DNA from: a virus
Direction: 5' to 3' (one strand)
Virus record (IMG/VR): IMGVR_UViG_3300035145_004233
Coordinates: 1-22,881 of that record
DNA length: 22,881 bases
Shown here: piece by piece, positions 5,180 through 20,302 of the stretch
Layout: each line of letters begins with the position of its first letter
How positions within the stretch are numbered: the first letter of the stretch is position 1
The notes under the pieces: generated by a model
Database searches by the model: none
Seen by the model: the letters and a program-made list of their open reading frames with translations, nothing else
Told to the model about the DNA's origin: nothing
Position numbers and translations under genes: made by a program

Positions 5180-5214
5180 AGCTGTGGCCTCAATTTGGGG
5201 CCACAGCTTTTTTT
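5180..5214 (+). terminator. Rho-independent terminator after the histone-like gene
   Basis: A perfect 10-bp stem AGCTGTGGCC (5180-5189) / GGCCACAGCT (5199-5208), 9-base loop, followed by seven T (5208-5214). It separates the upstream group of small genes from the FAD oxidoreductase gene. A weaker GACTG/CAGTC hairpin lies just before it (5143-5161). Confidence 0.93.
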
Positions 5215-5219
5215 GCGTA

Positions 5220-5227
5220 TATTTAGA
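5220..5227 (+). promoter_or_regulatory. Recurrent intergenic element, variant TATTTAGA
   Basis: ATATTTA core located directly after the terminator and 16 bases before the ATG at 5244. Because the terminator separates it from the previous gene, this copy belongs with the downstream gene and could be its promoter. Confidence 0.4.
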
Positions 5228-5243
5228 CAACCTCAAAAAACAA

Positions 5244-6722
5244 ATGGAAAAAATAGTAATAATCGGAGCAGGTGTAGCAGGTGTTAATGCTGCTACCAAA
5301 TTAGTTGATAATGGTTATCCTGGTGATCACATCACTATCATTGATATGGGTAACGACCCCTACAAGCGTAAACCTGAAGAAGTAATGACAGGTTTTATGG
5401 GTGCTGGTGGTTGGAGTGATGGTAAACTTACCTATCATACTTCAATTGGTGGACATATGTCTAAGTATTGTGGTGATGAAAAAGCTATGGAGTTAATGGA
5501 TCAAGTTATTACTAACTTTAAACGATTCCACCCTAAACCAGAAGAGGTACAATGCTCAAACCCAGTAGCAGAACCTGATTTTATCAAACCTTATTTTGGG
5601 CTTCGTTTATTCCCAGTTTGGCACGTAGGTACAGATTATCTACATGAAATTGGTAAAAATTGGTATGATTTTCTTTGTGATAAAGGTGTTAAGTTTCACT
5701 GGAATGCTAAAGTAACTAATGTTTTTCCTGATAAAAATAGGGTTGCATTTGAATATGTTAATAGAGATCGCCAAGGTGGTGGTACCTTTGATTATGACCG
5801 TTTGATTTTTGGTGTTGGTAAGTCTGGTATTGATTTTGGTAAAAGAATTATCGAAGAAAACAAATACCCAACCGAAGCAAAACCAGTACAGATTGGGGTA
5901 CGTTTTGAGGCACCACAAAAACACTTCCAGAAACTTATTGATGTAAGCTACGATTTTAAATTGTATCGTAAGTTTGAAGATGAGGGGGTATCACTTCGTT
6001 CATTTTGTACTAATAATAATGCAGCATATGTAGCACTTGAAGAAACATATGGTGATTATAGCTACAATGGTCATGCCAAAAAAGACGAAGCATATCGTAA
6101 TGATATGACTAATTTTGGTATTTTGATGGAAGTTAGAGGAATTGAGAAACCATTTGAATGGTCTCGTGAATTAGTTTCTAAAGTACAAAAAGTAGATATT
6201 GTACCTGGTGAAGGGTATGGTGGTAAAAGAGCACAAGGTCGTTTTCAAGCAAAATATAAAGCAGGATTATATTACTCACCTTGGGTTAAAGAAGAAGGTG
6301 GTGGCGGTATTGTAAATCGCCTAAAAAGTAAAACATCTGAAGGTGATTGGGTAAAAGCCCATTACATTACTGAAAAAGGCTTACAGGAAGTTCGTGATCA
6401 TTTTCAAGGATACTTTAAGTATATTGAGGATTTTATTGGGGATATGAAAAAAGTATTTCCAACACTTGGTGATGATTGGGGTATGTACATTCCTGAAGTG
6501 AAATATCTCTCACCTGAACCACTTGTAAATTATGACAATTTGTCACTTGAACAAGTACCTAATGTCCATTTTGTAGGTGACGCTCTTAGTGCTAGAGGTA
6601 TTACTGTAAGTGGAGCACAAGGGACATATGTAGCAGAAGATATTATAGAAAATCATAAAAGTGAATTATTTTTTCACTTAGAAGATGCTAATTATATTGG
6701 TGGATTAACAATGCCTAAATAA
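5244..6722 (+). CDS. FAD-dependent oxidoreductase/dehydrogenase
   Basis: The start at ATG 5244 places the dinucleotide fold at the extreme N-terminus: MEKIVIIGAGVAGVNAATKL, with GxGxxG at residues 8-13. A longer reading from 5184 starts inside the terminator and is rejected. The segment MTGFMGAGGWSDGKLTYHTS matches the 'GGAGaFSDGKL' signature of the uncharacterised NAD(FAD)-utilising dehydrogenases (COG2509-like). Near the C-terminus, FVGDALSARGITVSGAQG (about residues 443-460) is the second FAD-binding element, and the Asp of VGD usually contacts the flavin. At 492 residues it looks full-length. It is predicted to be a soluble flavoenzyme; substrate unknown. The gene sits between a terminator and small phage genes, so it is probably an auxiliary metabolic gene expressed from its own promoter. 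Confidence 0.85.
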   Translation: MEKIVIIGAGVAGVNAATKLVDNGYPGDHITIIDMGNDPYKRKPEEVMTGFMGAGGWSDGKLTYHTSIGGHMSKYCGDEKAMELMDQVITNFKRFHPKPEEVQCSNPVAEPDFIKPYFGLRLFPVWHVGTDYLHEIGKNWYDFLCDKGVKFHWNAKVTNVFPDKNRVAFEYVNRDRQGGGTFDYDRLIFGVGKSGIDFGKRIIEENKYPTEAKPVQIGVRFEAPQKHFQKLIDVSYDFKLYRKFEDEGVSLRSFCTNNNAAYVALEETYGDYSYNGHAKKDEAYRNDMTNFGILMEVRGIEKPFEWSRELVSKVQKVDIVPGEGYGGKRAQGRFQAKYKAGLYYSPWVKEEGGGGIVNRLKSKTSEGDWVKAHYITEKGLQEVRDHFQGYFKYIEDFIGDMKKVFPTLGDDWGMYIPEVKYLSPEPLVNYDNLSLEQVPNVHFVGDALSARGITVSGAQGTYVAEDIIENHKSELFFHLEDANYIGGLTMPK

Positions 6723-6728
6723 AAAATT

Positions 6729-6986
6729 ATGGGAAAAGATAATAAATGGCCTGAACCTAAAAAAATTACAACTCCTGAGGGAACTATTTTACGAACTTGG
6801 GATGGTAAACTCCACAGTTGGGACCACCCAGCACTTATACCTGAGGGTGTATACCGCAATAGAGAGTATTATCTTTATGGTGTAAGACTCACTGAAGAGG
6901 AATGGAAAGAGAGAAAAAGAGACAGAACAGGGTTACCTTGGTACAAGAATCCTGCAATGCGTGAATCAGCAAGACAAGGAGGATAA
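6729..6986 (+). CDS. Small protein with an HSWDHPA-type motif
   Basis: An 85-residue, charged, Trp/Tyr-rich protein beginning MGKDNKWPEPKKITTPEGT. The central WDGKLHSWDHPALIPEGVYR followed by NREYYLYGVRLTEEEW resembles one unit of the 'G.lHr.dGPA ... eyY.nG' repeat found in phage and other proteins. The tail is KRDRTGLPWYKNPAMRESAR. It has no signal peptide or membrane segment. It follows the FAD oxidoreductase by six bases and its stop overlaps the kinase start (TAATG), so the three probably form one transcript. Function unknown. Confidence 0.75.
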   Translation: MGKDNKWPEPKKITTPEGTILRTWDGKLHSWDHPALIPEGVYRNREYYLYGVRLTEEEWKERKRDRTGLPWYKNPAMRESARQGG

Positions 6987-7534
6987 TGAAAATAGGATTT
7001 ACAGGAACAATGAGTGTGGGTAAAACCACACTCGTTAATGCTCTTAAAAAATTACCTGAATTTGAAGGTTACACATTTGCTACTGAACGTAGTAAGTATC
7101 TTAATTCATTAGGTATACCTTTGAATTTTGAAACCACTATTGAAGGTCAAACTATATTCTTGGCAGAACGTGTTACAGAGTTAATGCAGGAAAATATTAT
7201 TACTGATAGAACAATCCTTGATGTGATGGCATTTACCAAATGTGCTAATAAAGTGAGTGTGTTGGATAGTGATGCATTTGAGAGCTATGCTTCTCGTTTT
7301 ATTAAACAATATGATCATATATTTTATATTTCTCCTAAAGGAATTGATATAGAAGATAATGGGGTTAGAGAAACAGACGAAAGTTATAGAAAAGAAATTG
7401 ATGAAACCATTCAAAAATTACTTTTAAAGTATCATCCTCAATCTTTTGAGGCTAGTGATAATTATTCTCCATATAAACTTAGTGGAACAACTGAAGAACG
7501 TATAGGACAAATATTAAAAACTATTAAGTCTTAA
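6986..7534 (+). CDS. P-loop NTPase / nucleotide kinase-like protein (NadR-kinase/AAA_28 type)
   Basis: The 182-residue protein opens with a Walker A motif, MKIGFTGTMSVGKTTL (GxxxxGKT at residues 7-14). ATERSKYLNSLG and IITDRTILDVMAF supply the Arg- and Asp-containing elements typical of small kinases that phosphorylate nucleotides or nucleosides; the DR motif is the usual Walker B-like position. This layout fits the NadR-type kinase/AAA_28 family often carried by T4-like phages. The likely role is a soluble ATP-dependent kinase or NTPase in nucleotide or NAD metabolism; substrate is not deducible. The start is preceded by AAGGAGG (6976-6982), one of the few Shine-Dalgarno-like sequences in the window, though only three bases from the ATG. 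Confidence 0.8.
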   Translation: MKIGFTGTMSVGKTTLVNALKKLPEFEGYTFATERSKYLNSLGIPLNFETTIEGQTIFLAERVTELMQENIITDRTILDVMAFTKCANKVSVLDSDAFESYASRFIKQYDHIFYISPKGIDIEDNGVRETDESYRKEIDETIQKLLLKYHPQSFEASDNYSPYKLSGTTEERIGQILKTIKS

Positions 7535-17892: not shown

Positions 17893-17919
17893 AAAAGCCC
17901 CGCTTCGGCGGGGCTTTTT
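17893..17919 (+). terminator. Strong UUCG-tetraloop terminator after the major capsid gene
   Basis: An 11-bp stem AAAAGCCCCGC (17893-17903) / GCGGGGCTTTT (17908-17918) closed by a TTCG tetraloop, ending in a T-run. It is the most GC-rich hairpin in the window and isolates capsid transcription from the enzyme genes. Confidence 0.95.
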
Positions 17920-17937: not shown

Positions 17938-17951
17938 ACTATATTTATAGT
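17938..17951 (+). promoter_or_regulatory. Recurrent TATTTATA element inside a perfect dyad
   Basis: TATTTATA at 17942-17949 is embedded in ACTATA-TT-TATAGT, a perfect inverted repeat. It lies between the capsid terminator and the ATG at 17972, so it is well placed as the promoter or operator of the enzyme/PhoH transcript. Confidence 0.45.
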
Positions 17952-17971: not shown

Positions 17972-18886
17972 ATGAAAGAAACTCCCTCTCAACTGCCTAT
18001 ACCGGCATTCGTTATGAATTTCCCCTTTACTCTTGACACTGCTAATCCTAATAATATTTGGATGCAAGAATTAGCACCCGAAGAGTTACAAATAAATAAA
18101 GCTGTAGCATATAGACAATTTTTAGATTTATATCAATTTGTAGCAGGAAATGGTTTAGTGTGTAATTTACCTTCTTATGGTAATTATCAAGATTTAGTTT
18201 ATGTAGCTAATTTAGGTATTTACTTACCTCATATTAAGGGATCGAATCATATTGTTCTTTCAAACTTTACTTCTGAACCTAGACAAGGTGAAGAAAAAGT
18301 TGGTCTTCCATTTTTTGAGTTAATGGATTACCAAGTACACATGTGCCCGTTTAAATGGGAAGGAGAAGCAGATCTTAAATATCTTTATGATAATGTTTAT
18401 ATAGGAGGATATGGAATCCGCTCAGACATTCAAGCATATGAGTGGATGGAAGAGGAGTTTGATATGAACATTATTAAAGTTGAAATGGTAGATGATTACC
18501 TTTATCACCTTGATTGTTCTATTTTTCCATTAACTAAAGAAAAAACATTAGTTTGCACGGAAATGTTCACTCCTGAAGAGGTAGCACAAATAGCACAATA
18601 TACTGAAATTATAGACGTTAGCGTTGATGATTGCTTCAACGGATTAACCAATTCAGTACGTTTAGGTAATATGATTCTTTGTGCCTCTAATATTTCTGAA
18701 ATGACTAGAGCAGATGAAAATTATGAAGCCGAAAAAGCTAAAATTAATTCATTAGAAAAAATATGTTTTAACGAAGGACTTGAACCAGTATTCTTCAACC
18801 TTTCAGAATACATGAAATCTGGTGCTATGTTAAGCTGTATGATGATGCACCTTAATTACGTTGACCAAACTAAATCTTTAATCTAA
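17972..18886 (+). CDS. Amidinotransferase / dimethylargininase-like (guanidino-group modifying) enzyme
   Basis: A 304-residue protein of the guanidino-group modifying superfamily (arginine deiminase, DDAH, glycine amidinotransferase). The N-terminal DLVYVANLGIYLPHIKGSNH followed by IVLSNFTSEPRQGEE matches the 'D.VFtANaGl ... f..peRrgE' block. KWEGEADLKYLYDNVYIGGY is the acidic catalytic segment (E132/D134), YHLDCSIFPL (His179) is the catalytic His motif, and NLSEYMKSGAMLSCMMMHL (Cys289) is the nucleophile motif near the C-terminus. All three catalytic elements are present, so activity on arginine or a related guanidino compound is predicted; hydrolase versus transferase cannot be decided. No signal peptide, hence cytoplasmic. 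Its stop overlaps the next start (TAATG), coupling it to a phosphatidylserine decarboxylase-like gene. Confidence 0.83.
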   Translation: MKETPSQLPIPAFVMNFPFTLDTANPNNIWMQELAPEELQINKAVAYRQFLDLYQFVAGNGLVCNLPSYGNYQDLVYVANLGIYLPHIKGSNHIVLSNFTSEPRQGEEKVGLPFFELMDYQVHMCPFKWEGEADLKYLYDNVYIGGYGIRSDIQAYEWMEEEFDMNIIKVEMVDDYLYHLDCSIFPLTKEKTLVCTEMFTPEEVAQIAQYTEIIDVSVDDCFNGLTNSVRLGNMILCASNISEMTRADENYEAEKAKINSLEKICFNEGLEPVFFNLSEYMKSGAMLSCMMMHLNYVDQTKSLI

Positions 18887-19635
18887 TGGCCCAACGTTTA
18901 GAAGATTGGCTTGAAGGAGAGGTTGCCGATCTCTCAGAATTAGAAGTAGGTGAACTTTCTAATACTTTCTTTTTTAGGGACCCTATGCGTCCTAATTATA
19001 TAGACCATAGACATTTCTACTCACCAGCAGATGGTGTAATTTTATATCAAAAATACGTTCAAGATGCTACTGAACCTATAGTAGAAATAAAAGGTATGGA
19101 TTATACCTTACAAGATGTTTTGGGAAATAAGTTTTATAACCAACCATCTCTTGTAATTGGCATATTTATGTCGTTTTACGATGTACATATAAATAGAATA
19201 CCATACACCGGTATACTACAATATAGAGGGTTGGATCCTATTGAATCTACAAATAAGCCTATGCTTGCTGTAGAAAAAGATATTCTTAATGCTGCTATTA
19301 ATCCTAACAACATGGAGTATCTAAAATATAATGAGAGAATGTTAAACAAAATATATTCTCCACAATTAGATTATACTTATTTCTTAGTACAAATAGCAGA
19401 TGAAGATGTTAATGTAATCGCCCCCTTTATTAGCGAACAGAATGCTCCTGTTTCACAAAACGAGCGTTTCTCACTTATAAGATGGGGTTCCCAAGTTGAT
19501 TTAGTTCTTCCTTTAGATGAAAGATACGATTTTGACCTTGTCTTACCTGATGAAATGCACGTTAATGCAGGTTTAGATAAACTAGTTAAAATTAATTTTA
19601 GGAATGACCCATTTCAACAATACCCCCAAAGCTGA
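18886..19635 (+). CDS. psd-like: Phosphatidylserine decarboxylase-like pyruvoyl enzyme
   Basis: A 249-residue protein. The region SNTFFFRDPMRPNYIDHRHF leading into YSPADG (46-51, Asp49) matches the PSD N-terminal and catalytic-Asp motif. IGIFMSFYDVHINRIPYTGI matches 'fLSPfDVHvNRaP..G' with His101. FLVQIADEDVNVIAP and NERFSLIRWGSQVDLVLP match the VQIAG... and GERfG.IRFGSrVD blocks. Ser202 in WGS is the expected self-cleavage site that becomes the pyruvoyl group. The family converts phosphatidylserine to phosphatidylethanolamine at the membrane. Here the N-terminal membrane segment usual in bacterial PSDs is absent, so it may be soluble or act on another serine headgroup. It overlaps PhoH by 32 bases and follows the amidinotransferase-like gene in TAATG overlap. 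Confidence 0.85.
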   Translation: MAQRLEDWLEGEVADLSELEVGELSNTFFFRDPMRPNYIDHRHFYSPADGVILYQKYVQDATEPIVEIKGMDYTLQDVLGNKFYNQPSLVIGIFMSFYDVHINRIPYTGILQYRGLDPIESTNKPMLAVEKDILNAAINPNNMEYLKYNERMLNKIYSPQLDYTYFLVQIADEDVNVIAPFISEQNAPVSQNERFSLIRWGSQVDLVLPLDERYDFDLVLPDEMHVNAGLDKLVKINFRNDPFQQYPQS

Positions 19636-20302
19636 AGAAATTTTCAGAGAAAAAAAAATAGTGAAAAATCCCATTAAGTTTAAAATACAACTTAATGATG
19701 AACAAAAAGAAGCTAAACAGCTAATTTTAGATAACACTATTACATTATTAGCAGGTCAAGCAGGTTCTGGAAAAACACTATTAGCATGTCAAGTAGCTTT
19801 AGATGGGTTGCTAAGAAGAATGTATGATAAAATTATTATCACAAGACCTACTGTATCTAAAGAAGAAATCGGCTTCCTACCAGGCGACTTAAGGGAAAAA
19901 ATGGATCCTTGGGTTCAACCTATTTATCAAAATTTATTTACTCTTTATGATAAAGCTAAAGTTGAAAAACTTATTGCTGATGGTAAAATAGAAATTGTAC
20001 CTGTCTCATTTATGAGGGGTAGAACATTTTTAGATTCATGTATTATTGTAGATGAAGCACAAAACGTAACTCATGATCAAATGGAAATGATCACAACTAG
20101 AATAGGTTTAAGATCAAAAATGATGGTTTGTGGTGATGATTACCAAATTGATTTAAAAAAGAAAGCAGATTCAGGGTTTAAATATTTATATAAGGCGTCC
20201 CGTAAAGTTAAAAATCTTGAAGCAATTACACTTACGTCTAACCATCGTAATGAAATTGTAGAGGATTTAAGAGATTATTACATGGATAACCCGGTTTATT
20301 AA
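19604..20302 (+). CDS. phoH: PhoH-like P-loop ATPase
   Basis: A 232-residue PhoH-family ATPase, common in T4-like and marine phages. Walker A is GQAGSGKT (51-58), Walker B is CIIVDEAQN (146-154), and ITRPTVSKEEIGFLPGDLRE plus VCGDDYQIDL are the family's other signatures. The N-terminal ~30 residues are basic and variable. The start at 19604 lies 32 bases inside the decarboxylase gene and has AGGA three bases upstream; no better in-frame ATG is seen before the core. It is probably involved in RNA or phosphate-stress metabolism in the cytoplasm; its role in phages is not settled. Transcribed with the two enzyme genes. Confidence 0.94.
   Translation: MTHFNNTPKAEEIFREKKIVKNPIKFKIQLNDEQKEAKQLILDNTITLLAGQAGSGKTLLACQVALDGLLRRMYDKIIITRPTVSKEEIGFLPGDLREKMDPWVQPIYQNLFTLYDKAKVEKLIADGKIEIVPVSFMRGRTFLDSCIIVDEAQNVTHDQMEMITTRIGLRSKMMVCGDDYQIDLKKKADSGFKYLYKASRKVKNLEAITLTSNHRNEIVEDLRDYYMDNPVY

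Follow-up and report, generated by a model that had tools for sequence, protein, structure and literature searches.

Putrescine synthesis by virus-encoded enzymes is already known, and the described routes make use of PLP ODC, of pyruvoyl ODC and ADC derived from AdoMetDC, and of arginase (Li et al. 2023, PMC9992855). They resemble the route that we propose here in that virus-encoded chemistry leads from arginine or ornithine to putrescine. Neither "dihydrolase" nor "phosphatidylserine" appears in the main text of that paper, and the main text of PMC10407285 mentions neither phosphatidylserine decarboxylase (PSD) nor dihydrolase. In the freely accessible literature searched, viral putrescine synthesis is not attributed to the two enzyme types considered below, and no report treats the two together as a pathway. 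As enzyme families, both are ordinary. The closest described relatives of the first are the cyanobacterial arginine dihydrolases ArgZ (Sll1336) and AgrE (Alr4995). In the ADI and DDAH enzymes two arginines hold the substrate carboxylate, and His-x-Asp is the motif of the ADI type, whereas the DDAHs compared in the same work carry Lys (PMC11659421). The second belongs with the PSDs (PF02666), which include a small class and an E. coli class. Known enzymes with the PSD fold include some whose substrate is a free amino acid, in one case a basic one: PsiD (8x4q, 8zia) is an L-tryptophan decarboxylase and an Aspergillus oryzae enzyme (9jer, 9jf5) is an arginine decarboxylase.

We have analysed a stretch of 22,881 bases (the window) from a virus of bacteria, in which Pfam and PHROGs recognise a T4-like head module (terminase, portal, protease and gp23) and which contains two adjoining enzyme genes, ORF A and ORF B. 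The features of the locus are the following:

About 17893..17919, plus strand: intrinsic terminator after gp23, AAAGCCCCGC-TTCG-GCGGGGCTTTTT, found by sequence and scan.
17942..17949, plus strand: TATTTATA element (TATAAATA on the minus strand), candidate phage promoter or start-proximal signal.
17972..18886, plus strand: ORF A, 304 aa, enzyme that modifies guanidino groups, predicted to be an arginine dihydrolase that forms ornithine from arginine.
18886..19635, plus strand: ORF B, 249 aa, PSD-family pyruvoyl decarboxylase of a soluble subfamily, with free ornithine as the predicted substrate.
19604..20302, plus strand: PhoH-like ATPase (Pfam PF02562, 209.9 bits).

The first-pass annotation had described two complete genes overlapping by one base, placed between the capsid and PhoH genes, separated from the former by a strong terminator, preceded by a sequence element and forming a unit with its own signals, and this picture holds. 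Pfam recovers gp23 and PhoH on the two sides of the pair, and of 132 viral locus records, among which duplicates of the same contigs are counted, 102 show the order gp23-A-B-PhoH. Because A and B share a single base (TAATG) and the end of B overlaps the start of PhoH by 32 bases, the three genes are probably carried on a single transcript. The terminator is clear, and a G+C run followed by T's is present in 49 of 55 distinct gp23-A spacers; to judge from these sequences, this type of terminator is kept across related loci. Read on the other strand, the TATTTATA element is the T4 late consensus TATAAATA. Of the 82 sense-strand copies of TATTTATA in the window and in 15 related phage loci, 57 end within 30 nt upstream of an ATG, compared with 3% of positions, while TATAAATA in the sense orientation does so in only 6 of 26 copies. 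This enrichment suggests that TATTTATA is probably a real phage signal, the supporting loci being mutually related. Its sites in the window (3116, 11760, 13163, 17942 and 20303) may be promoters or start-proximal signals that this phage group uses. Elsewhere in the window, a 512-aa FAD/NAD-dependent oxidoreductase-like protein is encoded near the head module (5184-6722; Pyr_redox_2, phrog_12409 dehydrogenase), and a nucleotide kinase-like P-loop protein at 6986-7534 (AAA_28, phrog_2107 thymidylate kinase).

Both profile families expected for the pair were recovered above their cut-offs: A matches PF19420 with 33.2 bits (cut-off 23) and B matches PF02666 with 83.8 bits (cut-off 22). In PHROGs they fall into phrog_12759 and phrog_12670, respectively, both families of unknown function. 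The nearest NCBIfam models of A are those of DDAH and arginine dihydrolase, and the score against NF052232, the curated model of ArgZ-type arginine dihydrolases, was 71.4 bits against a cut-off of 450; by sequence, A belongs to the same superfamily as those enzymes but to a different subfamily. B comes nearest to the PSD models, and its best PSD equivalog score was 69 bits against a cut-off of 183. As both proteins lie far below the NCBIfam equivalog cut-offs, neither is established as the orthologue of a named enzyme.

In the alignment of phage and bacterial relatives of A, residues N80, R104, E130, E132, R150, H179, D181 and C289 are invariant and N28 is conserved, and in that of B residues D49, H101 and G201-S202 are invariant. 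The active-site residues first listed for the two proteins (E132, H179 and C289 in A; D49, H101 and S202 in B) are thus all invariant except for D134 of A, which is Asp in phages and Glu in nearly all bacteria; E130 takes its place in the list. The structure models of both proteins were built on alignments of viral-contig and bacterial rows. That of A (pLDDT 91.7) shows the alpha/beta propeller fold with the Cys-His-Glu core of the guanidino-group modifying enzymes. Its only significant sequence matches in the PDB were ArgZ and AgrE, which also came first in the fold search (E 1e-19), followed by the weaker matches DDAH (4e-11), amidinotransferases (about 1e-10), AstB (2e-9) and agmatine deiminase (1.5e-8). 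The initial label "amidinotransferase" was therefore right about a guanidino-modifying family but too generic, as the closest structures are arginine dihydrolases.

A shares with the dihydrolase domain of ArgZ and AgrE the fold, the Cys/His/Glu core, the His-x-Asp motif and the carboxylate-site arginines. Its invariant Asn80 aligns with Asn71 of ArgZ, the residue mutated in 6juz (N71S), which we take from the title of that entry to be needed for dihydrolase activity. However, the identity is about 22%, A lacks the ornithine cyclodeaminase domain, EGEAD or EGEAE replaces the EGAGD motif, and A is paired with a PSD-family protein. Asn80 and His-x-Asp fall short of proving a dihydrolase, because an annotated dimethylargininase of actinobacteria has both, and we dropped Asn80 as a diagnostic residue. 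The motif H179-L180-D181 is His-x-Asp in place of the His-x-Lys of human and Pseudomonas DDAH, and we have rejected a DDAH function on this basis. The invariant R104 and R150 are presumably the carboxylate-holding arginine positions of ADI and DDAH, going by the alignment. Together with His-x-Asp, they suggest that a free alpha-carboxylate would fit, which favours arginine over agmatine as the substrate. From sequence and model, we predict that A is an arginine dihydrolase converting arginine to ornithine.

In the case of B, the likeness to PSDs comprises the Pfam family, the Asp of the ADG motif, His101 and the Gly-Ser self-cleavage site, so that membership in the superfamily is clear. Nevertheless, the B family forms a clade separate from the PSDs (support 100/100), and hydropathy revealed in it no N-terminal hydrophobic membrane segment of the kind that precedes FFRDP in small-class PSDs: its peak N-terminal hydropathy ranges from -0.98 to 0.33, against 1.16 to 2.68 for small-class PSDs from the same genomes and one plasmid. 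The small-class arginines that align with positions 90, 176, 177 and 203 of B are replaced by V90, N or D at 176, a variable residue and Q203, an argument that covers the small class only, as the E. coli PSD belongs to another class. B also carries acidic residues, D172 being invariant and D174 nearly so, and is accompanied by A. K69-G70 was considered as a B-specific feature and dropped, because the E. coli PSD has an identical segment.

The model of B (pLDDT 83) gave VIA-align structural Z scores of about 10.5 with E. coli PSD, 8.5 with PsiD and 7.5 with the Aspergillus arginine decarboxylase, so that no free-amino-acid decarboxylase stood out in this comparison as the closest fold; in Foldseek the top match was PsiD, with a weak E value of 2.8e-3. 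The two fungal enzymes share the PSD fold with B and apply it to a free amino acid, but they are longer, use other substrates and show no significant sequence match. The pairing with A, the gene context and this precedent lead us to predict that B is a soluble pyruvoyl decarboxylase of free ornithine: if A makes ornithine, an ornithine decarboxylase is the simplest role for B.

The coupling of the two genes had been read in the first-pass annotation as a sign of a shared pathway, and their co-occurrence in phages and bacteria is indeed very strong: every B-bearing viral locus long enough to judge has A. Each of the 45 INPHARED records that have B (39 Campylobacter and 6 Bacteroides phages) contains A as well. 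A stands alone in two records, of which one belongs to a Xanthomonas phage whose protein is ArgZ-like and the other gave a partial match. In the Bacteroides phages A and B are adjacent, and their neighbours are not gp23 but the replication genes for DNA ligase, helicase, dUTPase and primase; in Campylobacter phage NCTC12673 both genes are present about 42 kb apart. The 128 IMG/VR loci are overlapping records, many contigs recurring under both queries, and among them A precedes B at every B-bearing locus whose contig does not end there. In L036 the two are separated by an inserted endonuclease-like gene (5628-6629), by eye of the GIY-YIG type. Loci L045 and L046 have a diverged A (45% identity) after PhoH, and no B was found in the locus; B may have been lost there or the partner may be different. 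The DDAH annotated in Xanthomonas phage phiXF1 (L167, 2977-3795) carries ArgZ-like TANAG and YHLD motifs and is possibly arginine dihydrolase-like.

We scanned one genome per species (84,980 species) with the B alignment and found 32 loci, mostly at 45-54% identity. A adjoins B in most of about 30 bacterial genomes, at 44-55% identity and in the order B-A, the reverse of that in phages. The carriers belong to Verrucomicrobiales, Gemmatimonadota, Actinomycetota (Saccharothrix, Longimycelium), Latescibacterota, Sulfurimonas, Sedimenticola and Glomeribacter, and the pair is rare in bacteria: of 145 Verrucomicrobiota genomes, two have B, and the search was centred on one of these two. A contig of a Flavobacteriales MAG (L133) has the phage gene order at 68-75% identity. 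The phage order of A-B is also found on a 121-kb contig of a Verrucomicrobiota MAG (L205, G161), where the pair is 38% identical to that of the window; ORFs nearby resemble, by eye, GAPDH and a cell-wall hydrolase, as if the contig came from another phage lineage. Both look like phage contigs binned with their hosts. On a KSB1 MAG contig (L135, 598-1332), B has no detectable A and branches beside the phage clade; the genes after it encode a protein of 369 aa that matches nothing in Pfam and another that contains Ig-like domains.

The bacterial neighbours of the pair include exporters. A MATE exporter gene lies directly after it (checked with Pfam in L136 and L138, and in L143 on the opposite strand), and an MsbA-like ABC exporter follows it in Glomeribacter and Longimycelium. 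At nine Verrucomicrobiales loci it is followed by a solute-binding protein, all of one cluster, and at most of these by a hybrid histidine kinase. The solute-binding protein of L143 resembles PotD, with 180 bits against a curated cut-off of 582, and its best PDB matches are spermidine/putrescine-binding proteins (best E 1.7e-58); this polyamine-binding neighbour was seen only in Verrucomicrobiales and is located beyond the MATE gene. Among seven closely related Verrucomicrobiales carrying the pair, six have a single PF02784 protein, presumably LysA, and we found neither SpeD nor a convincing OKR decarboxylase in any of the seven genomes, which may be incomplete. This scarcity of other decarboxylases leaves B as a candidate source of putrescine, and, as these possibly incomplete genomes offer no clear spermidine route, export or signalling may be what the pair is for in these bacteria. 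A general link to the deoxyhypusine/homospermidine synthase family was rejected, since that family is present in only 5 of 22 pair-bearing bacteria.

A and B are strictly paired, their bacterial operon has exporters and a polyamine-binding protein as neighbours, and B has lost membrane-PSD features; all this points to a specific pathway, and several pathways have to be weighed. The reading first given to this locus was that the host membrane is remodelled before lysis, with phosphatidylethanolamine as the product of B and a guanidino head group as the target of A. PSD is after all the Pfam family name of B, and the GenBank records of Campylobacter phages already name both enzyme families in this way. 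However, besides lacking the membrane anchor and the small-class arginines and forming its own clade, B coexists in 19 of 22 B-bearing bacterial genomes with another PF02666 protein, the best of which scores 121-211 bits against 77-99 for B. Moreover, we found no CDP-alcohol phosphatidyltransferase (PssA family, PF01066) in 12 large phage records, and, while a canonical plasmid PSD adjoins a PS synthase, bacterial B has as neighbours exporters and the PotD-like protein and not PssA. On these grounds we have rejected a phospholipid pathway and regard remodelling of the membrane as very improbable. The earlier alternative of a modified amine or guanidino lipid or metabolite fares better in one half, as an amine metabolite is nearer to our best reading and a lipid is unsupported; that the pair yields some small amine derived from arginine, rather than a lipid, seems to us likely.

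Which amine is less clear-cut. The steps could run in another order, with B decarboxylating arginine to agmatine and A acting on agmatine, or with A making citrulline and B converting it to N-carbamoylputrescine. A PSD-fold arginine decarboxylase does exist (9jer/9jf5) and B precedes A in bacteria, but A retains both carboxylate-site arginines, needless for agmatine, has Asn80 where a Bacillus DDAH-family protein has Asp, and finds in agmatine deiminases much weaker structural matches; we consider these orders unlikely. A could also be a true amidinotransferase for which B supplies the amine acceptor, the product being a guanidino compound exported by the bacteria. The exporters beside the bacterial pair, the patchy and rare occurrence, reminiscent of secondary metabolism, and the common fold of the amidinotransferases HsvA and SxtG would agree with this. 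Nevertheless, ArgZ and AgrE match A far better than any amidinotransferase, no further biosynthetic genes were recognised in the bacterial operons read, and phages keep the pair alone, which makes such a natural product improbable.

All these data lead us to favour a two-step route from arginine through ornithine to putrescine, to which we give a probability of about 50%. It is suggested by ArgZ and AgrE as the best matches of A, the absence of PSD features in B, the pairing, the bacterial neighbours and the sparse decarboxylases of Verrucomicrobiales; we infer from them both substrates, the order of the reactions, their timing and their benefit. According to this route, A would hydrolyse L-arginine twice to give L-ornithine, CO2 and ammonia, as the cyanobacterial enzymes do, and B would self-cleave at Gly201-Ser202 to form its pyruvoyl group and decarboxylate free ornithine to putrescine in the cytosol. 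The pair would probably be expressed in the capsid-gene phase, and the putrescine di-cation could help to neutralise packaged DNA and feed spermidine synthesis by the host. T4 virions carry putrescine with their DNA. We found neither SpeE nor SpeD in the 12 phage records, which counts against the route and made us reject a phage-encoded spermidine pathway. In Campylobacter jejuni and Bacteroides thetaiotaomicron, the carboxyspermidine route leads from putrescine to spermidine, and the phages of these two hosts could therefore manage with putrescine alone.

Finally, we suggest, tentatively, that a soluble ornithine decarboxylase of bacteria and phages has evolved from the PSD fold, persistently paired with an arginine dihydrolase, and that this cassette has spread among several phage groups and scattered bacterial phyla. 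If this is true, many phage genes now called "phosphatidylserine decarboxylase" or "amidinotransferase", among them the ones in the 39 B-bearing Campylobacter phage records, would be mislabelled and would make a polyamine. Furthermore, ornithine decarboxylation would be within reach of a further protein fold, and phages would possess a putrescine route that is absent from the published overview of polyamine enzymes in viruses (PMC9992855).
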